This document shows, piece by piece, positions 10,873 through 15,568 of a DNA stretch of 45,556 nt. A model generated the notes under the pieces. It had not been told where the DNA came from, did not search any database, and worked only from the letters and a program-made list of their open reading frames with translations. Numbering within the stretch: position 1 is the first letter of the stretch; every line of letters starts with the position of its first letter. This stretch comes from Candidatus Ruthenibacterium merdigallinarum (GTDB taxonomy: Bacteria > Bacillota > Clostridia > Oscillospirales > Ruminococcaceae): contig DXGT01000115.1 of assembly GCA_019113785.1 (NCBI GenBank), positions 1 to 45,556 on the forward strand. The letters are read 5' to 3'. The position numbers and the translations under genes were made by a program.

Positions 10873-11607
10873 ATGGATACGCCTGTTTTTTCCATCGCCC
10901 TGTGCGACGACGACCCCGCCGACCTGCGCGCGGCCGAGACGCTCACCCGCAGCATCCTCGCCGAAAAGGGCGCGGCCTTCCGCCTGCGCTGCTTCTCCTC
11001 GCCGCGCGCGCTGCTGGACGCGCTGCGCGCCGACCCGCAGCAGTTCCACATGCTCCTGCTGGACATCATGATGGACTCCCTGGACGGCATGACGCTGGCC
11101 GAGACGCTGCGCCGCGAAAAAGTGGCCGCGCGCATCGTGTTCGTCACCAGCAACACCGAGCTGTCCATGGCGGCGCGCGGCTACGAGGTGCAGGCCAGCC
11201 GCTACCTCTCCAAGCCCCTGCAGCGCGAGCGCCTGCGCGAGGCGCTGGAGCACTGCTACGCCGCCTCGTTTCAAAAAAAAGAGATCCTTGTGTACGCCGA
11301 AGGCGGCCATCACAGGATCTCGGTGAGCGATATCCAGTACATCGAGGTGCAGGGGCGCGGCACCGTGTTCGTGTCGGCCTCGGGCCGGCTTGTGACGCAC
11401 AACAAGATCTCGGACCTCGAAAACCTGTCCGCCCTGGCGGATTTCGCGCGCTGCCACCAGAGCTTCCTCGTCAACTTGGAGCAGTTGGTCAGCGTGCGCC
11501 GCTACACCGCCGTTCTGTGCGGCGGCGTGGAGGTGCCCGTCAGCAAGCAGCGCTACGACGCCACGCGCCGCCGCCTGCTGGATTATCTCAATCAGGACGT
11601 GCGCTGA
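10873..11607 (+). CDS. LytTR-family response regulator
   Basis: 244 aa; IALCDDDPADL, LLDIMMDSLDGM, C-terminal IQYIEVQGRGTVFVSASGRLVTHNKISDLE and FARCHQSFLVNLEQL (LytTR). Confidence 0.93.
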   Translation: MDTPVFSIALCDDDPADLRAAETLTRSILAEKGAAFRLRCFSSPRALLDALRADPQQFHMLLLDIMMDSLDGMTLAETLRREKVAARIVFVTSNTELSMAARGYEVQASRYLSKPLQRERLREALEHCYAASFQKKEILVYAEGGHHRISVSDIQYIEVQGRGTVFVSASGRLVTHNKISDLENLSALADFARCHQSFLVNLEQLVSVRRYTAVLCGGVEVPVSKQRYDATRRRLLDYLNQDVR

Positions 11608-13529
11608 GCGCCGTCCCCCGCCGGCAGCGCCAGGCGCAGCCGGAAGCGCCCGTTTTCGCGCCGGATGTCCAGCAGGCCGCCGCAGCGCTCGGTGACCTGC
11701 TCGATGATCTTGAGCCCATAGCCATGCTCCGGCATGGCTTTTTCTGTTTCCTCCTCGCGCGCGGGGGCGGCCGCGGCGCGGCAGGTGTTCTCGCACCAGA
11801 AGCAGAAAAATCCGTTTTTCATGTGCATGTCCAGCGTGATGTGCGGCGCTTCGCTCTCGGCGGCCGCCGCACAGGCGTTTTCCAGCGCGTTCATCAGCAG
11901 GCTGCACAGATCCTGGTCGCTGATGGGCAGGCGCGCGGGCGCCGCGGCGCTGCGCACCTCCACCGCCACGCCGGCGTGCGCCGCGTCGGACAGGCGGCTG
12001 TTCACGATCACGTCGATCATATAATTGCCCGTGTTCACATAGCGCGGGATGGCCTCGTCGCGCTTCACCAGCTCGCGCACATAGTCGGCCGCGCGCGCGG
12101 TCTCGCCGCCGTCCAGCATGGCCGCCAGCGCCGTGAGGTGGTGGCGCATGTCGTGGCGCAGCATCATCACCTGCTCGTCGCGCTCGCGCAGGTCGCGGTA
12201 GCTCTGCTGCGCCAGCGCGTACTGCATGTTCAGCACGCGCATCTCCGTGCCGCGGCGCACGATGTCGCGCACGGTGGTGATGACCACCGCCAGCACGCTG
12301 CCCGTCAGCAGCAGCACGCGTGTGACGATGAGCACCGCGTGCGGCGAGCGCTGGCGCACCGCCGCGCGGATGGCCCCGAGGGCCGCCGTGCCCTGCAGCG
12401 GAGTGAACGCGCCGCCCGACGCGATCATCAAGACGAACAAAATGGCCCACAGCGCCGCCAGCGCGGCGATGGTGGCGGTCACCACGCGGAAGAACGGCGT
12501 GCCGGCGCGCGCCTCCAGCGCGCCGAACACGATGGCCGCCCACAGGCACGCGATGCGGCACAGCATGGCCGCGCCGTCCACCCACGCGGGCGCAACGCCC
12601 GCGCTGGCCGCCCAGGCCGCGGGGATGCTGACCGCCATCAGCGCCACCACCGCCCAGAAGGGCTTTTGCAGCCGGCGCATGCGCGAGAGCAGGAACAAAA
12701 GCAGCGCCAGCAGGCTGAGGTACGGGTTGAGGTACACGCTGAGCCGGCTCAGCATGTCCGCGCCGGGATATTCGCTGAAGAGCGGCGCCTGCGTCACCGC
12801 GTCGCCCGCCCACAGCAGCGCGAACAGCGACAGGAACACAAGCCCCGCGTCGAACACGCCCTTATAGGCCTGGTACAAAAACAGCGCGATGCCCATCAGG
12901 CACACGGCGGACAGCGCCGTCGTGAACGCCGACGTCTGCGCCGCGCTCGCGGCCAGCTGGCCGTGCGCGGGGTCAGTGGCGTACAGCGTCACCGCGCAGG
13001 CCACGGCGTCGTCCGGATAGCCGGGCTTTTCGCCCACGCTCGCGCCCTGGGCGATGGTCAGCGTCTTGCCGACATACCCGTCCGGCAGCGACAGGCGCAG
13101 CGGCTCGCGCCGGTCGCTCTCGTGCATGGGCAGCACGACATAGCCGATGCGGTTGTCGGCCTCGGGCGCGTCCGTGTACAGCAGCGCGCCGTCCAAGAAA
13201 ACAGCCACGCTGCGGTTGGCGGCGTCGATCTCCAGCAGCGCTCCGTCCATCTCCTGCGTCAGCGTATATTCATAATAAAAAGTCTGGCCCGGCTCGGTCA
13301 GGCCCTGGTACACGCCGCCGCTCACCCGCGTCAGCGGCGTCTCCTCGCCGGCTTCGTCCGTGTAAAAGCGCCAGCCCTCGTCGCTGCCGGCGCTCAGCAG
13401 GGCGACGCTCTCGCTGGGCGCGGCGCGCCAGTACATCGTCATCGAGGGGATCAGCGCGGCCAAAAGCAGCAGCGACAGGAAGAGCGCCGCGGCGAATTTC
13501 TTTTTCACGGGGCACCCCTCCTTGCACAC
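11592..13529 (-). CDS. 7TM/GHKL sensor histidine kinase (AgrC/NatK type)
   Basis: 645 aa; extracellular domain, multiple TMs, LRHDMRHHLTALAAML phospho-acceptor region, C-terminal GHKL ATPase (GYGLKIIEQ). Confidence 0.9.
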   Translation of the reverse strand: MCKEGCPVKKKFAAALFLSLLLLAALIPSMTMYWRAAPSESVALLSAGSDEGWRFYTDEAGEETPLTRVSGGVYQGLTEPGQTFYYEYTLTQEMDGALLEIDAANRSVAVFLDGALLYTDAPEADNRIGYVVLPMHESDRREPLRLSLPDGYVGKTLTIAQGASVGEKPGYPDDAVACAVTLYATDPAHGQLAASAAQTSAFTTALSAVCLMGIALFLYQAYKGVFDAGLVFLSLFALLWAGDAVTQAPLFSEYPGADMLSRLSVYLNPYLSLLALLLFLLSRMRRLQKPFWAVVALMAVSIPAAWAASAGVAPAWVDGAAMLCRIACLWAAIVFGALEARAGTPFFRVVTATIAALAALWAILFVLMIASGGAFTPLQGTAALGAIRAAVRQRSPHAVLIVTRVLLLTGSVLAVVITTVRDIVRRGTEMRVLNMQYALAQQSYRDLRERDEQVMMLRHDMRHHLTALAAMLDGGETARAADYVRELVKRDEAIPRYVNTGNYMIDVIVNSRLSDAAHAGVAVEVRSAAAPARLPISDQDLCSLLMNALENACAAAAESEAPHITLDMHMKNGFFCFWCENTCRAAAAPAREEETEKAMPEHGYGLKIIEQVTERCGGLLDIRRENGRFRLRLALPAGDGAQRTS

Positions 13530-13688: not shown

Positions 13689-13718
13689 TTGACAGCGCCG
13701 CGCGCAGCGTGCTATAAT
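13689..13718 (+). promoter_or_regulatory. consensus sigma-70/A promoter TTGACA-18-TATAAT
   Basis: TTGACA 13689-13694, TATAAT 13713-13718; about 220 nt upstream of the ECF gene. Confidence 0.9.
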
Positions 13719-13724
13719 CATGCC

Positions 13725-13897
13725 CAGAGCAAACGGGCGGCACGAAGCCGCCTTTCGCCCCGCAGACGGGGCCTGCGGCCGCTTTGTCGCGGCTGCGCGC
13801 CGGGCCTTGCCCGGCAGGAAAATATGCGTTCACTCGAACCGGGCGTCACGAAGGCGCCGGCGCGCGGGGCAGCCCCCTGCGCACCGGCGCCTTTTTT
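13725..13897 (+). ncRNA. candidate cis-regulatory leader RNA (riboswitch/attenuator) of ECF transporter operon
   Basis: Hairpins at 13736-13752 (GGCGGC-ACGAA-GCCGCC), 13756-13771 (GCCCCG-CAGA-CGGGGC), about 13773-13797 and about 13799-13815; then GGCGTC-ACGAA-GGCGCC (13842-13858), whose 3' arm is also the 5' arm of a terminator (13851-13897). Confidence 0.7.
13851..13897 (+). terminator. intrinsic terminator within ECF leader
   Basis: AAGGCGCCGG...CCGGCGCCTTTTTT. Confidence 0.9.
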
Positions 13898-13937
13898 CAT
13901 CCCGCCGCAGTGCGCAGCGAGAAAGGAAGACCATCCG

Positions 13938-14477
13938 ATGAATCCGAACATGAAAAAGCTGACCTACTCGGCGCTGTTTCTGGCGCTGGCCTTCATCCTG
14001 CCGTTCTTCACGGGGCAGATCCCGCAGATCGGCAGCATGCTCAGCCCGATGCACCTGCCGGTGATGCTGTGCGGCTTTGTGTGCGGCGGGCCGTGGGGGC
14101 TGGCCGTGGGCTTTGCCGCGCCGCTGCTGCGCAGCCTGACGCTGGGCATGCCGCCGCTGTTCCCCACCGCGCTGGCCATGGCGTTCGAGCTGGCGGCATA
14201 CGGGCTGTTCTGCGGCGTGTTTTACGACCTGCTGCGCAAAAAGTGCTCCTCGCTCAAGGCGTGCTACATCGCGCTGGCCGGCGCCATGCTGGCCGGCCGC
14301 CTGGTGTGGGGGGCCGCGCAGTTCGTGCTGCTGGGCGTCAGCGGCGGCAGCTTCACCTTTTCGGCGTTCCTGGCCGGGGCGTTCTTCAACGCCGTGCCGG
14401 CCATCGTGGTGCAGCTCGCCCTTGTGCCGGCCATCGTGACGCTGCTCGAGCGCGCGGGCGCGCGGGCCCGCACATGA
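13938..14477 (+). CDS. ECF transporter S component
   Basis: 179 aa; MKKLTYSALFLALAFILPFFTGQIPQIGSMLSPMHLPVMLCGFVCGGPWGLAVGF, typical S-component fold; RBS GAAAGGAAG. Confidence 0.85.
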   Translation: MNPNMKKLTYSALFLALAFILPFFTGQIPQIGSMLSPMHLPVMLCGFVCGGPWGLAVGFAAPLLRSLTLGMPPLFPTALAMAFELAAYGLFCGVFYDLLRKKCSSLKACYIALAGAMLAGRLVWGAAQFVLLGVSGGSFTFSAFLAGAFFNAVPAIVVQLALVPAIVTLLERAGARART

Positions 14478-15568
14478 GCGTCTTTGCGCCCGAGGCGCTG
14501 GCGCGCACATTGGCGGACCATGCGCGGCGCTATCCGCTGATGGAGGCCGCCGACGCCGTCAAGCTGTGCCACCAGGCCGCCTTCGGCGCGGCGCATTTCT
14601 GCGCGGGCGAGGCCGAGGCGCTCGCGGCGCTCATCGCCGAGAGCGCACCGGTGACGCCAGACGCCGCCGCGCCGCTGTGCGAAGCGCTGGGCGGGCCCGC
14701 CGCCGCGTGCCGCGTGTCGCTGGCGGCGGCAAAGGCGCAGGGCCTTTCGGCCGGCACGCTGGCGCGCCTGTTTGCGCTTTCGGCCAGCGCGCCGCAGCCC
14801 GAGGGCGCGAAGGAGTGGTTCGCCGCGGCGCTGGACGCGCTGCCAGCATTGGCGCAGAGCGTCCCGCTGCCCTTCACCGCGCAGCAGGCGGTCGAGGCCG
14901 TCGCGCGCTGGCGCGCCGCAGGCTGCGGCGTGCCGCGCCATTCGCAGCGCTACCGGCAGGCTTATGCGCCGCACTACCGCGTGCTGTCCGGCCCGGCGGC
15001 CCGCCTTGCGCCGCTGGCCGCCGCCGTGGACGCGCGCGCCGCGCGCCTTTCGCCCGGCCGGCGGCTGAGCGTGGCGATGGACGGCTTTGCCGCCGCCGGC
15101 AAAACGACAGCCGCCGGCCTTCTGGGCGCGGTGTTTTCGGCGGACGTCGTGCACATGGACCATTTCTTTTTGCCAAAAGAGCTGCGCACGCCGCAGCGGC
15201 TGGCCCAGCCGGGCGGCAACGTGCATTACGAGCGCTTTGCCGCGCAGGTGGCGCCGCACCTTGCGCGGCGCGAGGCGTTTTGCTACGATATTTTCGACTG
15301 CGCGCGCATGGAGACGGCCGGGGCCGCCCGCATCGGCGACGGGCCCGTGCTGTTTGTGGAGGGCGCGTACGCCATGCACCCCGCGTGCGGCGGCGAATAC
15401 GGCGTGACGGCCTTTTTCGACGCCGGCGAAGCCACCCAACGCGCGCGCATTCTGGCGCGCAACGGCGAAGACTGCTGGCCGCGCTTTCGCGACAAATGGA
15501 TCCCGCTCGAGCGCGCGTACGAGCGCGCGTTCGGCGTCATGTGCCGCGCGCAGATGGTCGTGCGCTGA
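14474..15568 (+). CDS. P-loop (uridine-kinase-like) kinase with N-terminal helical domain
   Basis: ATGA overlap with the ECF gene; SVAMDGFAAAGKTTAAGLLG Walker A, VVHMDHFFLPKELRTPQRLAQPGGNVHYERF, FVEGAYAMHP. Confidence 0.8.
   Translation: MSVFAPEALARTLADHARRYPLMEAADAVKLCHQAAFGAAHFCAGEAEALAALIAESAPVTPDAAAPLCEALGGPAAACRVSLAAAKAQGLSAGTLARLFALSASAPQPEGAKEWFAAALDALPALAQSVPLPFTAQQAVEAVARWRAAGCGVPRHSQRYRQAYAPHYRVLSGPAARLAPLAAAVDARAARLSPGRRLSVAMDGFAAAGKTTAAGLLGAVFSADVVHMDHFFLPKELRTPQRLAQPGGNVHYERFAAQVAPHLARREAFCYDIFDCARMETAGAARIGDGPVLFVEGAYAMHPACGGEYGVTAFFDAGEATQRARILARNGEDCWPRFRDKWIPLERAYERAFGVMCRAQMVVR

Follow-up and report, generated by a model that had tools for sequence, protein, structure and literature searches.

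A family of GAA-loop hairpin leaders, apparently acting by antitermination, upstream of ECF transporter S-component and nickel-related genes in gut Clostridia

Introduction

Aptamers can be as small as tandem hairpins with conserved loops, as in the guanidine-II class, and the targets of CsrA include arrays of A(N)GGA loops. The NiCo riboswitch is a multi-helix junction aptamer located upstream of efflux genes. Antitermination sites recognized by ANTAR proteins have hexanucleotide loops with A at position 1 and G at position 4 (PMC3369931). For the ANTAR protein EutV, it has been proposed that Met172 precludes binding of tetraloops, and lengthening the linker between the hairpins by 20 nt abolishes antitermination (PMC8934654). 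NikABCDE and other nickel uptake genes are controlled by NikR (PMC2667541).

Here we describe a leader in a 45,556-nt stretch of DNA from Candidatus Ruthenibacterium merdigallinarum (hereafter the window), which was compared with the leaders of related genes and with the systems above. With somewhat guarded confidence, we regard it as a diverged member of a family of cis-acting antitermination RNAs that control genes for nickel acquisition and nickel cofactors in Bacillota, and that are probably read by an RNA-binding protein.

Results

The window leader is preceded by a sigma-70 promoter, TTGACA-18-TATAAT with an extended -10 element, at 13689–13718 on the forward strand, on which all leader features described below also lie. 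It matched the consensus at 12 of 12 positions, in agreement with an earlier note made from this sequence; one such promoter was found versus 0.1 in shuffles, and the orthologue leaders had a promoter in the equivalent position. Hairpin H1, recognized in the sequence and by fold prediction, is GGCGGC-ACGAA-GCCGCC (13735–13753, core 13736–13752) and is homologous to H1 of the congeners L015 and L017, with an ATGAA loop, and L009, with an AGGAA loop. In the linker, folding gave three additional GC-rich hairpins within 13757–13815 (13757–13772, 13774–13797, and 13799–13815). L015 and L009 have a plain linker at this place and L017 one GC-rich hairpin; judging from these sequences, the additional hairpins are for the most part lineage-specific. 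The four stacked hairpins of the earlier note therefore hold for the window sequence but not for the family, since the three in the linker mostly lack a counterpart in congeners. The antiterminator hairpin H3, GGCGTC-ACGAA-GGCGCC, also found in sequence and fold, occupies 13842–13858 and may reach 13839–13860, with a gap of 89 nt from H1. The intrinsic terminator (13850–13897) consists of an outer stem of 11 bp (13850–13860/13884–13894), an inner stem of 8 bp (13862–13869/13875–13882), and T6 (13892–13897). As the earlier note had proposed, the 3' arm of H3 is part of the 5' arm of the terminator, and both the stems and the folding calculations indicated that the two folds are mutually exclusive. 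A ribosome-binding site, AAAGGAAG, was read in the sequence at 13922–13929.

The fold of the window leader had a z-score of -4.2. In fold prediction, RNA truncated at 13860 formed H3 and the full-length RNA formed the terminator, with energies of -8.9 kcal/mol for H3 and -38.7 kcal/mol for the terminator. The same note had correctly placed two 6-bp hairpins with an identical 5-nt loop at 13736–13752 and 13842–13858. When the sequence was shuffled 3000 times with dinucleotides preserved, such a pair never arose, and 0.13% of the shuffles contained a GAA-loop hairpin with one arm in common with a terminator.

A 32-nt copy of the promoter stretch, 94% identical, was present upstream of a DUF362-like gene in the same genome (L002 1501–1531; G000:C39:20290–20320), and DUF362-like genes seem to lie upstream of the S component in some relatives (e.g., L012 and L081). 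At 10873–13529 of the window, a LytTR response regulator gene (+) and a GHKL sensor kinase gene (-) are convergent with overlapping ends, whereby the kinase gene and the S-component operon point away from each other.

The relatives of the S component were collected by protein similarity alone, and their leaders therefore provided an unbiased test. In the orthologue leaders of 80 named loci, we found 62 hairpins with a loop ending in GAA and followed by G, compared with 0.7 (sd 0.9) in shuffles, an enrichment of about 85-fold, and 17 cases of strict overlap between antiterminator and terminator, compared with 0.08 in shuffles. L015 repeated the design of the window with GCGCGGC-ATGAA-GCCGCGC followed by GATGCT-ATGAA-GGTATC overlapping GGTATCTTTTTTT, and L017 and L009 had a design like that of L015. 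The family consensus consists of H1 with an NGAA or ANGAA loop, an optional H2 with an AGAA loop, and H3 with an ANGAA loop, which excludes the terminator. The full form has an H1 of 7 bp with NGAA and, after a further 3–4 nt, an H2 of 5 bp with AGAA. A linker then leads to H3 (GATACT-ANGAA-GGTGTC) and to the terminator, in which the apical loop is itself often NGAA. Among 61 family sequences, the H3 loop ended in GAA in 92% and H2 was detected in 48. The H1–H2 gap was almost constant in the family alignment (2–5 nt), and the H1–H3 gap was 31–97 nt in the relatives as aligned by the model. Loops were 4–5 nt long (ACGAA in the window; AGAA, TGAA, or ANGAA in the 61 relatives), and conservation was confined to the loops and their closing pairs, with freely varying stems. 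In L006, L007, L013, and L026, CAA or ACAA loops replaced NGAA in all hairpins of some leaders; from sequence comparison, a joint change of loop and reader in these lineages seems conceivable.

The main covariation counts were obtained from an 18-sequence alignment that was independent of any structure model. Of the 24 pairs in the H1/H2/H3/H4 fold, 15 showed two-sided changes, as did 20 of the 27 in the H1/H2/terminator fold; all shuffles stayed below these values, and pairing in slid controls dropped to 42–61%. In this set H3 alone showed only one-sided variation, which is expected because its arm is common to two folds. Over 61 sequences, 23 of 24 pairs covaried, in an alignment that was made by the model and hence leans towards the structure. 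The exchange of U-G for G-C between H1 and H3 that the earlier note had taken as internal covariation is real but weak evidence alone, the strong evidence being the covariation among orthologues. The comparison of orthologous leaders that it had recommended revealed GAA-loop hairpins that were present and covarying, and its proposal of an antitermination leader controlling the S component and a coupled kinase agreed with this conservation.

The covariance model R1 was trained solely on S-component leaders. Neither R1 nor R2 matched the window leader in a 45-kb scan; an unfiltered local scan gave 22.2 bits in a shifted register, and the congeners L015 and L017 scored 38.2 and 28.1 bits, respectively. 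The presumed membership of the window leader in the family rests on its anatomy, on the same downstream gene and synteny, and on its congeners. It has H1 and H3 with (N)NGAA loops closed by C/U-G and an H3 whose 3' arm is common to the terminator, and would be a diverged, GC-rich family member that lacks a canonical H2. In Rfam 15, neither the window nor any of 14 loci carrying orthologue leaders gave a match at the gathering threshold. When the window leader and two strong family members were searched at E ≤ 10, nothing came near the threshold, in line with the earlier note, which had found no fit to the TPP, FMN, THF, cobalamin, or preQ1 consensus. No nickel- or Lar-linked RNA element was described within the limited set of papers searched. 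The leader family has apparently not been described so far.

Beyond the S-component genes, genome matches of R1 were found upstream of larB and larE-larB operons, a NikA-type substrate-binding protein (SBP) gene, a CbiM-CbiQ-CbiO operon, and a BtuCD-type ABC transporter, with LarB, LarE, and LarC scoring above the NCBIfam cut-offs. The class- and phylum-level matches of R2 included NikA-D/E-B-C-larE-larB-larC (L239), in which NikABCDE and lar share one operon, as well as ABC-SBP-larE-larB-larC (L237), memA-memB-larE-larB-larC (L247), NikA with 586 bits against a cut-off of 393 (L256), a further CbiQ operon (L257), and a CbiA/MinD-type P-loop ATPase that is probably CooC-like (L250). Sorted by downstream gene, the 87 genome matches, whose E-values are rough and whose genome sets are samples, comprised 56 for the S component/kinase, 17 for lar or memA/memB, 5 of NikA type, 3 of BtuCD/siderophore type, 2 for CbiMQ, and one each for the CooC-like gene, a methyltransferase with an Opp/Nik ABC transporter, alaS (at a contig end), and no recognized gene; 85 of the 87 were upstream of S-component/kinase, Lar, metal-transport, or CooC-like genes. 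Because the element precedes larB/larE/larC, NikABCDE, CbiMQO, and other metal-transport operons, the common theme is nickel, and the downstream gene set points to a nickel regulon. To judge from these matches, many gut Clostridia carry the element upstream of nickel-uptake and nickel-cofactor genes. NikR was not found in 59 of 61 element-bearing genomes.

Two small membrane-like proteins were encoded between the element and larB/larE/larC at L155, L159, L161, L182, L184, L185, L188, L189, L247, and L248. One begins MACF, has about 140 residues, and contains FEHVWHGE; the other begins MTLLT and has about 105 residues. Neither had a Pfam or NCBIfam match. They hold the slot taken elsewhere by NikABCDE or BtuCD-type transporters and are candidates for a nickel transporter or a cofactor partner. 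At L243 (G226:C59, contig end), a leader of the S-component type, copied almost exactly and most like that of L073, lies upstream of an apparent alanyl-tRNA synthetase gene and represents either recruitment or an assembly chimera. In some genomes (e.g., G150, G268, G360, G601, G723, and G761), larB/C/E operons were under the element and no LarA was recognizable.

The gene regulated by the window leader (13938–14477, forward strand) encodes an ECF transporter S component of 179 residues (PF12822, E = 2e-14), which belongs to a family that, at E ≤ 1e-25, was present in 191 of the 394 genomes from the order; no solved structure similar by sequence was found. It overlaps by 4 nt with a gene on the same strand (14474–15568) for a two-domain protein of 364 residues, the structure model of which had a pLDDT of 95.8. 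The C-terminal domain is a P-loop kinase domain resembling kinases of the uridine kinase/phosphoribulokinase/NRK superfamily. The N-terminal domain (window 14474–15000) is helical, with a conserved YQxxFGxGH motif and a pLDDT of about 95; it gave no Pfam match and no clear partner by PDB sequence profile or fold search. This domain was a stand-alone ORF in some genomes (L187 and L198). To our knowledge, the S component/kinase pair itself has not been linked to nickel. The presence of a nucleoside-type kinase beside an S component within a nickel regulon suggests that the pair salvages a nickel-pincer nucleoside, which we offer as a hypothesis because the co-occurrence with LarA was weak. By hand count, any PF09861 match was found in 24 of 39 S-positive and 14 of 39 S-negative genomes, a weak correlation; two weak PF09861 matches (G000 and G005) are presumably ferredoxin-containing DUF362-type proteins rather than LarA. 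Queuosine salvage by the pair was dropped once the Lar/Nik regulon emerged.

Discussion

In all but one of 31 leaders, the terminator surpassed H3 in stability, with medians of -20.2 and -4.5 kcal/mol, respectively, and read-through therefore needs something that holds H3. We propose that by default the nascent RNA would fold the terminator and transcription would end upstream of the S-component/kinase operon. The GAA-G loops would be read in trans by a factor that binds H1, H2 where present, and H3 and is most likely an RNA-binding protein, either dimeric or multivalent; the bound factor would keep H3 closed and block the terminator, so that the operon is on, probably when nickel or the nickel cofactor is short. 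The existence of this factor and its protein nature are inferred; conservation limited to loops and closing pairs, freely varying stems, an optional H2, and an H1–H3 gap of 31–97 nt are the signature of repeated protein sites, of which ANTAR targets are an example. The direction of the signal would follow from the genes, because binding would mean expression of nickel uptake and cofactor genes, for which shortage is the sensible signal, and an RNA-binding protein acting in its apo-form is therefore favored. No regulator gene was linked to the element-bearing operons, and no candidate reader protein was found.

A modular layout of this kind is no less compatible with a protein target than with a riboswitch. 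Still, direct binding of Ni2+, the nickel-pincer nucleotide, or a precursor of the latter by the GAA-loop hairpins is possible, if on the unlikely side; the hairpins would then set the choice between H3 and terminator with no protein. What unites the regulon is nickel and its cofactor and not a linked regulator gene, NikR is absent from nearly all of the genomes (59 of 61), and the nearly fixed H1–H2 spacing of 2–5 nt would allow H1 and H2 to form a compact aptamer, for which the tandem hairpins of guanidine-II are a precedent. Against this, H2 is optional and the H1–H3 linker varies threefold; stabilization of H3 would turn genes on, which is odd for uptake genes if nickel is the ligand; and a kissing dimer like that of guanidine-II is unavailable because most loops are not self-complementary. 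The fuller version, a new riboswitch class that senses Ni2+ or the nickel-pincer nucleotide through the GAA-loop array and controls the uptake of nickel, the synthesis of the cofactor by LarBEC, and nickel-pincer nucleoside salvage by the S component and kinase, seems to us rather doubtful.

It is quite improbable that the element is a canonical target of an ANTAR protein of the EutV/NasR/AmiR type with shortened loops. The arrangement matches in that hairpins occur in tandem and the second lies within a terminator, the eut consensus C-AANGRR-G (PMC3369931) has some likeness to the loop C-ANGAA-G, and the genome of the window encodes one ANTAR protein, adjoining a glutamine synthetase-like gene. 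However, the loops have 4–5 nt in place of the ANTAR hexanucleotides with A1 and G4, and such loops and an H1–H3 gap of 31–97 nt conflict with the role proposed for Met172 and with the effect of linker length in EutV (PMC8934654). Of 50 near-complete element-bearing genomes, 22 have an ANTAR domain and 28 have none, and on loop length, linker, and missing protein we rejected ANTAR proteins as the general factor. A constitutive promoter-proximal terminator with incidental GC-rich hairpins and no regulation, which the GC-rich genome and strong terminator might suggest, is contradicted by the loop enrichment, the covariation, and the regulon specificity, and is very improbable. The least credible reading is a variant of guanidine-II (mini-ykkC) or another Rfam class (THF, NiCo, preQ1, or TwoAYGGAY): ACGAA is superficially like ACGR, but there was no Rfam match and the regulated genes differ, and the echo of guanidine-II in the earlier note was mistaken, since the loops found in orthologues (AGAA, TGAA, and ANGAA) for the most part have no CG core. 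CsrA targets were considered and set aside, as most loops here lack GGA.

Because NikR is missing from almost all tested element-bearing genomes, an antitermination RNA family of the kind we favor would fill a gap in nickel regulation in gut Clostridia. It extends tandem-hairpin antitermination by a new loop code, and the regulon offers a handle on what a very common ECF S component and the nucleoside-kinase-like protein paired with it have as their ligand, on the two co-regulated small membrane proteins, and on the loop-reading factor. Should the element prove to be a riboswitch instead, its class would be either the second related to nickel or the first one known for the nickel-pincer cofactor.

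Among the known systems, the targets of EutV, NasR, and AmiR share with the present family two small hairpins in which the loops are conserved and the stems vary, a second hairpin that overlaps and excludes the terminator, and termination by default. The present elements differ from them in having NGAA or ANGAA loops and no A1/G4 hexaloops, a linker of 31–97 nt, up to four hairpins, and nickel genes rather than nitrogen or ethanolamine genes, and more than half of the genomes lack an ANTAR protein. Guanidine-II RNAs (RF01068) likewise have tandem short hairpins with conservation limited to the loops, but their loops are ACGR with a CG kissing core, whereas those of the present family are mostly without CG, the second hairpin is built into a terminator, and the genes are different. 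The NiCo riboswitch (czcD motif) is, like the element described here, an RNA tied to nickel genes; the present element, however, is a linear series of hairpins upstream of uptake, cofactor, and possibly salvage genes, and has no Rfam match. NikR is likewise tied to nickel uptake genes, but it is a DNA-binding protein, unlike the RNA element of this study.
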